Assembly (NCBI RefSeq): GCF_018131015.1
Contig: NZ_JAFCJJ010000011.1
Location: 62,001-126,000, forward strand
Source of the DNA: Bradyrhizobium diazoefficiens
GTDB lineage: Bacteria; Pseudomonadota; Alphaproteobacteria; Rhizobiales; Xanthobacteraceae
Length of the DNA: 64,000 nucleotides
Direction of reading: 5' to 3'
A program made the translations under genes and the position numbers. Position 1 is the first letter of the stretch; each line of letters begins with the position of its first letter. The notes under the pieces were generated by a model. It did not search any database and had not been told where the DNA came from. It saw only the letters and a list, made by a program, of their open reading frames with translations. Positions 2,344-58,927 of the stretch are shown here, piece by piece.

Positions 2344-3237
2344 CTAGCTCTCGTTCCGAAGCCGGGCGCATTCCGCCGCCAATTGCTCGATCAGCTCCAG
2401 GCGTTCCGAGCACACATCCCGAAGCGAATCGCACTCCGACGTCAATCGGCCGATCAATTCCAGGCGCTCGGAGCAGGCTCGTTCGAGCTGCATGTTCTCG
2501 CCACCGAGCTGCCTCGCCGTGCGAACCAGCCCTGTCAGCTCATCGGGGAATCGGGCCATCTCGGCGCCGCGCGCATAACCGAGCTGGACCATCAGGTCCT
2601 GATGCAGATGAAAGAACAGTGCATCGATCACTGGAGTCCACTCCGGAGCGCCCTCCCATCGGACGCGCCCTTCGCGGAAGAAGAACCGGTCATACGCATG
2701 AAGACTGTCGAATGGATTTCGCCACGGTGCGATCGGGCCGCGATAGGCAGCGACATCTGCGATGGCGGACAGAGTTGCTGCAGAGGGCTCGACGAGGTCT
2801 TCGAACCGTACGATGAATGTGTTCCTGCGCCCGGCCCATGCGTGGTAGTGGCTGGACCAGTCGCCGTAACGATCGATGCCAACGACGATCTCGGCGAGAG
2901 ATCCGGTCCCGCTGCGAAACCGCCGGTCAAAATGCAGGTACGACAGGCACGCCTTGCGGCCGTCCCGAACGACATAGATGGCGGGTTGATCGTCGACGGG
3001 CGGCCGATGCGTCTTGACGAGAAAAACCTCATCCGCCTCGCTTGCCTGCCGGTAGAACGCGTTCCAGTCGGTCAGGATGCCCTCGACGCCGACGTCGATG
3101 GCCCAGACATCTCCGTCCCTCACGTGATCATTCTCATCCATGGAGTCCGATCGGGAGGACAGCCCCATGGACTGCTTCAGGACGGTCCGCAGCAGGGTAT
3201 TTCCCGAGCGCGGAAACGAAGCGAGCCAGACGATCAT
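2344..3237 (-). CDS. Sulfotransferase domain protein with coiled-coil tail
   Basis: A 297-residue protein starting MIVWLASFPRSGNTLLR, the 5'-phosphosulfate-binding loop of PAPS-dependent sulfotransferases at the very N terminus. The 3'-phosphate region is consistent with IYVVRDGRKACLSYLHF (near residues 96-112). These enzymes transfer sulfate from PAPS to a hydroxyl or amino group; the acceptor is unknown. The start at 3237 is preferred over an upstream in-frame ATG at 3300 because GGAG precedes it and the P-loop always lies near the N terminus. The last 50 or so residues hold two near-copies of a 20-residue unit (CSERLELIGRLTSECDSLRD and CSERLELIEQLAAECARLRN) predicted to form a coiled coil. 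No glycan or sulfate-activation genes adjoin it. Confidence 0.8.
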   Translation of the reverse strand: MIVWLASFPRSGNTLLRTVLKQSMGLSSRSDSMDENDHVRDGDVWAIDVGVEGILTDWNAFYRQASEADEVFLVKTHRPPVDDQPAIYVVRDGRKACLSYLHFDRRFRSGTGSLAEIVVGIDRYGDWSSHYHAWAGRRNTFIVRFEDLVEPSAATLSAIADVAAYRGPIAPWRNPFDSLHAYDRFFFREGRVRWEGAPEWTPVIDALFFHLHQDLMVQLGYARGAEMARFPDELTGLVRTARQLGGENMQLERACSERLELIGRLTSECDSLRDVCSERLELIEQLAAECARLRNES

Positions 3238-3309
3238 CGATCGGTCACTCCAATACGACGCTGCAGGGACGCATCGCAATGGAGGGCATATCACTGTCAT
3301 CCGGGCTGG

Positions 3310-9285: not shown

Positions 9286-9459
9286 GCGCGTTCTCTCCGA
9301 TCAAGCCTCGGGTCCATTGAGGCTCCGCGAGCGGTCGAGCGCAAGCCTGACGCGATTTTCGGCAATGATCCGCGCGCTGCGATGGCGATGCTGCACTGCG
9401 GTCGAAATCAACCGAAGTCGCCCTTGATTTTTCCGCGGCGTTGGCCCACCCGAAGAGGC

Positions 9460-56797: not shown

Positions 56798-56877
56798 CGT
56801 CATTGCGAGCGCAGCGAAGCAACCCAGAGTCCTTCCGCGAAGGGATTCTGGATTGCTTCGCTGCGCTCGCAGTGACG
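56798..56877. repeat. 80-base palindromic repeat, dispersed type
   Basis: The arms GTCATTGCGAGCGCAGCGAA... at 56799-56822 and its complement at 56853-56876 pair over 24 bases with one mismatch; a smaller TCCTTC-cgc-GAAGGGA hairpin fills the centre. It resembles the CGTCATTGCGAGCG-type palindromes abundant between Bradyrhizobium and Rhodopseudomonas genes. It may also terminate the MarR transcript. Confidence 0.8.
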
Positions 56878-56990
56878 GAGCAAGGGGCACAGGCTTCTTT
56901 CGCCAAATTCCACCGTCATTCGCCGCGAAGGCGGGGAATCCAGTACGCCGCAGCTTCTCTGTTCAATCACAGCCGTCTCTGGAATGCTGG

Positions 56991-57014
56991 ATCGCCCGGT
57001 CAAGGCCGGGCGAT
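56991..57014. repeat. Hairpin repeat unit
   Basis: ATCGCCCGG and CCGGGCGAT form a perfect 9-bp stem around six bases, embedded in a context (TGGAATGCTGG before, GATGACAGTGAG after) that recalls another common Bradyrhizobium intergenic repeat. Confidence 0.65.
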
Positions 57015-57039
57015 GACAGTGAGCGCAGACGCGCCTCCG

Positions 57040-57650
57040 CGTGCTCGCGGCCCAATTCGCCCGAGGCTTGCTTGATTTCCTCACCCTCCAAACCAAGAGG
57101 GTGCAGGGAAGGCCGGGTGCTGACCTCGCACCCGCGGTCCGCTGCGCGAAATCCAGCGCAAAAGAACCGCACAGCAGCATACAGGTGGTGCCAAATCACT
57201 CGGCCTTCCCTGCGCAATGGCTGGACGGCTTATGCCGTGCTCTCCCGGGAGCCGAGTTCCTTCTGGCCTCCCTCGCGCCTCGCGAAAGTCGCCGGCACCG
57301 CGCCGGTTGACGCGCATGCCGCATCCGCAAGAGCTTGACCGTAGCGACGACGGCCAGGACCACACGGTTTTGCCGTACGCGCGGTTCGCCATGTTCGCCG
57401 CAGCATCTCCAGCCCTGTCGACGAAGCCGGAAACCTGCTGGCGAGACGAACCTTTCAGCGCCGCTCGTCCGCGCGCGGCCCTTGGGCTCACGGAGAGCAA
57501 TCCGCCCTGCCCCGGACCTTTCGCGCTACGGCGCTGCCGCGTCCACCGCAAGCCCGGCTCGCGATACGTGACGACCACAAGATCGCCCCTCAAGATTGAG
57601 CCGGGATGGGCGACACATACGTCATTTCCGAATTTCGGTAAAGGAGAATA
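57040..57650. repeat. GC-rich element of unknown nature with nested inverted repeats
   Basis: A block of about 600 bases. GCAGGGAAGGCCG (57103-57115) is exactly complementary to CGGCCTTCCCTGC (57201-57213), and GGGTGC/GCACCC (57115-57120, 57128-57133) forms a hairpin inside. Further on are CTCCCGGGAG and ACGG-TTTTG-CCGT. I recall similar blocks in Bradyrhizobium genomes, so a dispersed element or structured RNA is possible. Boundaries are approximate; coding is doubtful because overlapping open frames exist on both strands without domains. Confidence 0.45.
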
Positions 57651-57862
57651 TTTTTGCGACGCCGGCTTGACAACCAGCGCAGGTGTTTCGCCCGTCGGGC
57701 CGATCCGGCGCCGACAGGCGAACGAACCGGGATCATCGGCGTCGTCTTGTATGCATTATCCCAGTTGCCATCATGGGGGACTTCGCTTTACATGCCGCCA
57801 AATCCGCCTGCCGGCCGTGGCCGGGGCCGAAAAATCGCACCATTTTGTCAGAGGGAAGAAGC

Positions 57863-58927
57863 ATGGCGCGCAACGTTCTGATCCTGGGAGCTTCCTACGG
57901 CTCCCTGCTGGGCACCAAGCTGCTGATGGCCGGGCACAACGTCACCCTGGTCTGTCGCGCCAAGACCGCAGAGCTCATCAATCGCGACGGTACCGAGGTG
58001 CGCATCAAGCTGCGCGACGAGGCGGTGCACCGGGCGATCTTCTCGCGCGACCTGCCCGGCAAGCTCGACGCGGTGACGCCGCAGAATGTCGACGTCTCCC
58101 GCTACGACATGGTCGGTCTCGCGATGCAGGAGCCGCAATACACCAATCACACGGTCCGCATGCTCATGGTCAAGATCGCCGCGGCGAAGCTGCCGTGCCT
58201 GTCGATCATGAACATGCCGCCGCTACCGTATCTGAAGCGGATTCCCGCGCTCGCCGACATGGACCTCGAGGAGGCCTACACCAATGCGCAGGTGTGGGAG
58301 CGCTTCGAGCCGGGCCTGGTGACGCTGTGCTCGCCCGACCCGCAGGCATTCCGCCCGCCGGAAGAAGCCGCGAATGTGCTCCATGTCGGCCTGCCCACCA
58401 ACTTCAAGGCTTCGGTCTTCGCCGACGAGAAGCACAACAAGGTGCTGCGCGAGCTCGAAGCCGATATCGACGCGGTCACGCTCGACGGCAAGGACGTGCC
58501 GGTAAAGCTGAAAGTGTTCGATTCTCTGTTCGTGCCGCTGGCGAAATGGTCGATGCTGCTCACCGGCAACTACCGCTGCATCACGCCGCACGAGCCGCAG
58601 TCGATCCGCGACGCCGTGCATGGCGATCTGAAGCGCTCGCAGACGATCTACGACCATGTCGACGCGATCGCGCGGCGTCTCGGCGCCGACCCGCAGGACC
58701 AGGTGCCGTTCGCGAAATACGCCAAGGCCGCCGAAAGCCTGCTCAAGCCATCGTCGGCCGCGCGTGCGGTCGCGAGCGGCGCGCCCTTCATCGAGCGGGT
58801 CGACCTCCTGGTGAAGCTGATCTCGCATCAGCTAGGCGTGCCCAACCCCGAGATCGACCGCACGGTCGAGACCGTGGACCAGAAGCTCAACGAGAAGATC
58901 GTGCAGGGCGGATCCGGCGCGCAGTGA
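57863..58927 (+). CDS. Ketopantoate-reductase-like dehydrogenase
   Basis: A 354-residue protein with an N-terminal nucleotide-binding fold (RNVLILGASYGSLLGTKLLM; GAS-Y-GSLLG instead of strict GxGxxG) and a helical C-terminal domain (WSMLLTGNYRCITPHEPQSI), in the outline of ApbA/PanE or opine-dehydrogenase-like enzymes. The true substrate is unknown; ketopantoate to pantoate is only one option. The ATG at 57863 has GAGGGAAG upstream; an open frame starting at 57683 is unlikely. It stands alone. Confidence 0.78.
   Translation: MARNVLILGASYGSLLGTKLLMAGHNVTLVCRAKTAELINRDGTEVRIKLRDEAVHRAIFSRDLPGKLDAVTPQNVDVSRYDMVGLAMQEPQYTNHTVRMLMVKIAAAKLPCLSIMNMPPLPYLKRIPALADMDLEEAYTNAQVWERFEPGLVTLCSPDPQAFRPPEEAANVLHVGLPTNFKASVFADEKHNKVLRELEADIDAVTLDGKDVPVKLKVFDSLFVPLAKWSMLLTGNYRCITPHEPQSIRDAVHGDLKRSQTIYDHVDAIARRLGADPQDQVPFAKYAKAAESLLKPSSAARAVASGAPFIERVDLLVKLISHQLGVPNPEIDRTVETVDQKLNEKIVQGGSGAQ

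Follow-up and report, generated by a model that had tools for sequence, protein, structure and literature searches.

Few classes of RNA are known that combine a length of several hundred nucleotides with an elaborate fold, and we know of none that occurs in dozens of co-oriented chromosomal copies. Ribosomal RNA operons are present in several copies, run co-directionally with replication and undergo concerted evolution. The classes OLE, ROOL and GOLLD, as presented in PMC12286853, measure hundreds of nucleotides and have elaborate, covariation-backed folds with poorly understood functions, ROOL and GOLLD being encoded in phages or prophages, often near tRNA islands. For Bradyrhizobium japonicum, PMC5082802 gives the consensus palindromes of Br-REP1 and Br-REP2 as 20 and 40 nt and calls Br-REP2 part of a larger repeat (data not shown there), while RmInt1 is described in PMC8914252 as inserting mainly into the lagging-strand template.

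Here we describe a block in a 64,000-nt stretch of B. diazoefficiens DNA (the window, to which positions refer) that probably belongs to a multicopy family, typical of Bradyrhizobium, of genes for large structured noncoding RNAs. In the literature searched, mainly its openly accessible part, no description of such an element was found, and an RNA gene family of ~600 letters, dispersed in Bradyrhizobium, is apparently without an existing name.

Extent and Edges of the Element

An earlier note on this DNA had reported a GC-rich, non-coding block of about 600 bases next to two repeat units. A block of that size is real; alignment of copies from the same genome and from other genomes of the genus showed that the true unit is somewhat longer, 677 bp with sharp homology limits at 57025 and ~57701 (Table 1). 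The left edge falls at 57020–57027 and the right edge mostly at 57698–57702, or at 57671 or beyond 57702 in some copies. The composition was misjudged, since G+C is 65.1% in 57025–57701 vs 65.2% in the window. The repeat units beside the block are indeed there, as REP-type repeats upstream (56798–56877; 56915–57019), and so is the perfect 13-bp inverted repeat (57103–57115 with 57201–57213), which is part of the conserved helices 13–14 and sits in a 17-nt, 94% pair (57103–57119 with 57197–57213).

Table 1. Features of the repeated element and its immediate neighbours, in window positions.
Feature	Position	Strand	Basis
Whole repeated element	57025..57701	minus (RNA sense)	homology edges across copies with otherwise unrelated flanks
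Predicted structured RNA, ~610 nt, 5' end near 57638	57025..57640	minus	consensus structure with covariation, fold z, promoter-like site
Promoter-like site, TTGTCA - 17 nt - TATTCT	57645..57673	minus	shuffle scan; spacer kept across copies
Most conserved core, GCGUACGGCAAAACCGUGUGGUCCUGGC ... AUAAGCCGU ... CCAUUGC	57214..57380	minus	source of covariance model R1
Long hairpin domain around the 13-bp inverted repeat	57101..57215	minus	helices 13-16
Peripheral hairpin domain, lost as a block in some copies	57383..57452	minus	30 aligned copies
Palindrome GCCCGTCGGGC, REP-like, edge on the RNA 5' side	57690..57700		motif counts vs control flank
REP inverted repeat, neighbour outside the element	56798..56877		inverted pair
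REP unit repeated at many other places, neighbour outside the element	56915..57019		

REP-like motifs are enriched at both edges. At the end on the RNA 5' side, the motif TGTTTYGCC/GGCRAAACA was found in 65 of 150 copies vs 1 of 148 control flanks, and the strict palindrome pattern in 35/150 vs 2/148; on the RNA 3' side, a CATTGCGAGCG-type motif was found in 25/147 copies vs 2/144 control flanks. The motifs at the edges may be a trace of how copies spread; alternatively, element and REP may both have gone into permissive sites. The element itself is not a REP/BIME unit of 20–40 nt palindromes, being a 677-bp unit with a complex fold that REPs only abut, and no terminal inverted repeat of at least 12 nt, a feature of MITEs, joins 57025 and 57701.

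A Conserved Fold on the Minus Strand

Folded as a single sequence, the window copy gave z values of -4.9 (minus strand) and -3.2 (plus strand), with 20 shuffles per strand. RNAalifold prediction on 30 copies reached -394.7 kcal/mol on the minus strand vs -256.2 ± 8.4 in column shuffles (n = 15), and -316.6 vs -231.6 ± 7.2 (n = 15) on the plus strand, the latter being expected for the complement of a folded strand.

The strand is indicated by the G-U and A-C cells. Near-full-length profile matches (171 of 397 rows, 150 distinct) were used for the pair counts, for alignment A1 and for the reading-frame test. Among 140 copies below 95% identity, the minus-strand structure contains 3119 G-U vs 288 A-C cells. 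The plus-strand prediction holds, overall, nearly as many A-C as G-U cells (1206 vs 1270), and A-C leads G-U (1073 vs 496) at pairs that are mostly Watson-Crick. Since A-C on the plus strand is G-U on the minus strand, the asymmetry points to an RNA of the minus strand.

Alignment A1 comprises 43 diverse copies (60 chosen, 17 of them removed by hand to keep the alignment small), and its consensus holds 94 pairs in 17 helices, with changes on both sides in 36 pairs. The fraction of cells paired was 96.6% vs 88.4% in shuffles and 38–47% when the structure was slid by 1–3 columns, a control that partly favours the structure, which was derived from the same alignment. Cells with double changes numbered 342 vs 105 in shuffles, covariation was 0.291 vs 0.144, and none of 500 shuffles reached the observed value on any of the five measures. 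The guess of the earlier note that the block might be a structured RNA is supported in that a conserved RNA fold exists, with comparative evidence beyond chance. Its suggestion of a decayed mobile element finds no support in the near-complete copies, which keep 96.6% of their paired cells, a figure on which the selection of A1 copies for near full length bears. The peripheral domain at 57383–57452 is lacking as a block in 9 of the 30 aligned copies, and a further copy, L006, lacks most of it. As a separate observation, the copy at the marR-ApbA locus L163 (G474) has, inside the hairpin domain, ~390 bases (about 1112–1500) between matched parts where ~40 were expected.

The overlapping open frames without domains noticed on both strands do exist, and none of the four tested had a Pfam match. 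A conserved reading frame was looked for among the 150 copies and none was found, in line with the claim that the block is non-coding: whichever frame is read, stops interrupt it in all but 5 or fewer of the 150 copies, and indels are mostly not multiples of three. A protein-coding reading was rejected on these grounds.

Promoter-Like Site and Predicted Transcript

Scanning 56900–57950 gave a single promoter-like site, TTGTCA-17-TATTCT on the minus strand (57673–57645), with a mean of 0.1 in shuffles. Both hexamers occur in 42 of 43 copies, with a spacer of 17 nt in 36, 16 nt in five and 18 nt in one; the GTC of the -35 and most of the TATT recur from copy to copy. Conservation does not extend to the opening two letters of the -35, and TATTCT/TATTCC matches a -10 hexamer weakly. 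The first hairpin, CCGAAAUUCGG, begins 7 nt downstream of the site, so we place the RNA start near 57638. The conserved promoter-like pair suggests, from sequence, a predicted transcript of ~610 nt from 57638 to 57025. No terminator was found at the RNA 3' edge, the single match lying inside the RNA at chance level.

The window copy was also compared with known RNAs. Rfam 15 scans (E up to 1 and up to 10) returned nothing above chance (best E 1.8), and membership of a known RNA family was rejected accordingly. For the coordinates of the BjsR sRNAs, we took genome G403 to be USDA 110. None of BjsR1–10, as tabulated in Table 1 of PMC5082802, coincides with the 19 motif sites of this genome; the nearest, BjsR5b, lies by our own reckoning ~1 kb from the element. 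PMC4842269 presents strand-specific RNA-seq and TSS data for B. diazoefficiens USDA 110.

Copies and Host Range

The element was proposed to be dispersed in Bradyrhizobium, and both blastn and motif searches found further copies in its own genome and across the genus. Elsewhere in the window's genome, blastn detected four near-complete copies at 71–87% identity, plus shorter or more diverged ones; matches were obtained in 24/24 other genomes of the genus and in 0/16 genomes of other families. A 24-base core motif (up to 3 mismatches, 391 genomes in all) was found in 107/107 genomes of the genus, with 1 to 84 sites each, and in 14/284 genomes from the rest of the family, where several hits are lone sites that could have arisen by chance; the reversed pattern had four sites in total in the 391 genomes.

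The covariance model R1, built on the conserved core (57214..57380), counted 15 copies in the window's draft genome, 44 in G005, 83 in G259, two in G103 and a single one each in G347 and G382. Copies were also detected in three other genera of the family (11 in G228; 3–4 in G246, G195 and G270; two in G208; four in G114). In an order-wide draw of 297 genomes under stricter filters, R1 matched 9/9 genomes of the genus and 1/288 others, this lone match being borderline (E 8.6e-4). Among the matches listed are strains of B. liaoningense, B. yuanmingense, B. japonicum, B. elkanii and B. diazoefficiens. Housekeeping RNAs do not usually range from 1 to ~84 copies.

Several copies are located at the ends of contigs. 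Distant blastn against 50,697 phage and 72,556 plasmid records gave no match, and plasmid or phage cargo was rejected on that basis. On a viral metagenome contig (L440), the exact core motif was seen at 9328–9351, within 91 bases of the contig end.

Shared Loci and Likeness among Copies

In the window, the element lies between a marR-type and an ApbA-type gene, and the only R1-detected copy of G347 is likewise between marR and ApbA. In G021, G008 and G403 the element has the marR-type gene on one side and, on the other, a gene of 523–527 aa, presumably a porin as judged from how it reads, with the ApbA-type gene ~4.5 kb further. All or part of the element is present at this locus in 27 of the best 30 of 233 matching genomes, a sample that favours presence because the best-scoring loci were taken first. 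At the marR loci L167, L169 and L172 no element was found within the DNA fetched; L169 (G403) has the element ~4.8 kb from the ApbA-type gene. Altogether, both flanks are common across genomes in 17 locus groups (146 copies). Target duplication was looked for at three loci, and no clean empty site or insertion junction was found; the empty-site test at L032 was uninformative, as the left gene seems to belong to a large paralogous family. At L125 (G005; 2567–3243), the element sits at a rearrangement scar; in G418 and G390 its flanking genes are separated by ~66 and 85 kb. The truncated gene start beside it reads, in our judgement, like a hydrogenase small subunit.

Copies sit at shared loci and yet often resemble others of their own genome more closely than those of other genomes. 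In the tree, grouping by genome was seen at 11/13 loci for G005 and 6/7 for G021 and in 4/4 of the G000 copies used and 2/2 of those of G002. Copies of G011, G013 and G022, in contrast, are split or do not form sister groups. For 117 of 158 ortholog pairs, one of the two genomes holds a paralog closer than the ortholog; for the other 41, no paralog found was closer than the ortholog. The pairs are not independent: some copies entered twice with different names, and a genome listed by organism name may reappear with a G handle. This pattern is best explained by recombination among the copies, as happens in rRNA operons; repeated insertion at the same places would be a less simple account.

Frames in nine neighbourhoods of 17–20 kb were judged by inspection, and no partner gene was noticed beside the copies. 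In a set of 39 contexts, with one copy in twice, neighbours were compared by strand, length and distance only.

Orientation Relative to Replication

Orientation was counted in five single-contig genomes (G005, G021, G354, G357 and G403), the terminus being bracketed by GC skew and KOPS counts; they are not blind tests, since the pattern was first noticed in listings with copies of all or some of them. Copies carrying the exact motif (the main subfamily, class A) were co-directional with the fork in 48 cases and opposite in two (p 2e-12). Diverged copies (class B) showed a mild bias, 40 co-directional vs 21 opposite, with 21/24 co-directional far from the terminus and a mixed 19/37 near it. The classes were defined after viewing the site listings; sites inside the terminus bracket (four class A, 16 class B) were uncounted, and G327, which has no exact-motif copy and for which 19 of 31 sites were listed, was left out. 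REP sites counted likewise as a control in three of the five genomes were 23 co-directional vs 26 opposite, 37 of 50 control sites coming from G357. In G228, of another genus, 9/11 copies are co-directional if the origin is near coordinate 0. Class B was commoner around the terminus, with 53/77 sites in the bracket or within 12% of genome length of it vs 13/54 for exact-motif sites.

Discussion

Taken together, the sequence comparisons make it very likely that the element belongs to a multicopy family of large structured RNA genes, be it a host RNA or a selfish RNA element. A complete copy would consist of the promoter-like site and an RNA of ~610 nt with a many-branched fold of 17 consensus helices. 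Its own sigma-70-like promoter would drive transcription, the RNA would act in trans as a folded RNA or ribonucleoprotein, and recombination between copies would keep them alike. The orientation bias could reflect strong transcription, selection then acting against head-on copies, or else insertion into DNA that is template for the lagging strand. As to its cellular task, our guess is an RNA, or an assembly of RNA, that depends on dosage, comparable to OLE, ROOL and GOLLD.

That the element is mobile, selfish and non-autonomous, with a folded RNA or folded single-stranded DNA that serves only its own spread and a transposase or reverse transcriptase supplied in trans, we consider possible though less likely than not. 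Its orientation would then be set by insertion into the lagging-strand template, as for RmInt1 or IS200/IS605-type transposition. The copy number of 1–84, the clusters of copies peculiar to one genome (as at the 11/13 loci of G005 and 6/7 of G021) and both ends abutting REP palindromes far above the control flank agree with such an element, as does the lagging-strand preference of RmInt1 in the account of PMC8914252, which by our reasoning gives the same sense as here. It is less easily reconciled with 17 locus groups shared between genomes with intact folds, with ends that no terminal inverted repeat of at least 12 nt joins, and with neighbourhoods in which inspection noticed no partner gene; moreover, the conserved unit holds the promoter-like site upstream of the predicted start, which RNA-only copying would lose.

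A more specific host role can be offered tentatively, and we regard it as rather unlikely in its full form: an unrecognised trans-acting class of structured RNA, ~610 nt long, with up to ~84 gene copies homogenised by gene conversion and co-directional with replication, forming an rRNA-like, high-dosage RNA machine or an RNA-only assembly.

An element acting at the DNA level in replication or chromosome architecture, for which polarity matters and the RNA fold is incidental, appears improbable: the fork orientation in five single-contig genomes, and the 9/11 in G228, of another genus, provided that its origin lies close to coordinate 0, would suit it, whereas neither the strand asymmetry of G-U vs A-C, not expected for DNA, nor the double compensatory changes in 36 pairs would. 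A short protein gene or a decayed gene is extremely improbable: the overlapping open frames of the window copy would suit it, whereas no frame is open across copies, indels fall out of frame and the four frames tested lack a Pfam match.

The element is present in every genome searched of an agriculturally central genus. It lends itself to direct tests on RNA-seq data that already exist and by simple deletions, some species having a single R1-detectable copy. The element may also explain some Bradyrhizobium assembly breaks, given the copies at contig ends, and may account for spurious hypothetical proteins in these genomes.

Comparison with Known Systems

Group II intron RNA is of a similar order of length and starts with the motif GUGYG. 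RmInt1, as a group II intron, shares with the element a structured RNA and a one-sided orientation relative to the fork; the element differs in having no GUGYG at its edge or predicted start. A group II intron was rejected, no group II model of Rfam matching even at E 10. No reverse transcriptase frame was found either (Pfam on four window frames; at most 5/150 copies open per frame), a result that ORF-less degenerate introns would also fit.

Br-REP1 and Br-REP2 are, like the element, dispersed intergenic repeats of the same genus, but their sequences are different and they are palindromes of 20 and 40 nt; the comparison covers these palindromes and not the larger repeat of Br-REP2. The likeness to OLE, ROOL and GOLLD lies in a length of hundreds of nucleotides and in an elaborate fold supported by covariation. 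The element fails the Rfam covariance models of all three and, unlike ROOL and GOLLD, matches no phage or plasmid record searched and is dispersed in many copies oriented with replication. From ribosomal RNA operons it differs in having no Rfam match and a far more variable copy number, and it resembles them in being multicopy, co-directional and concertedly evolving.
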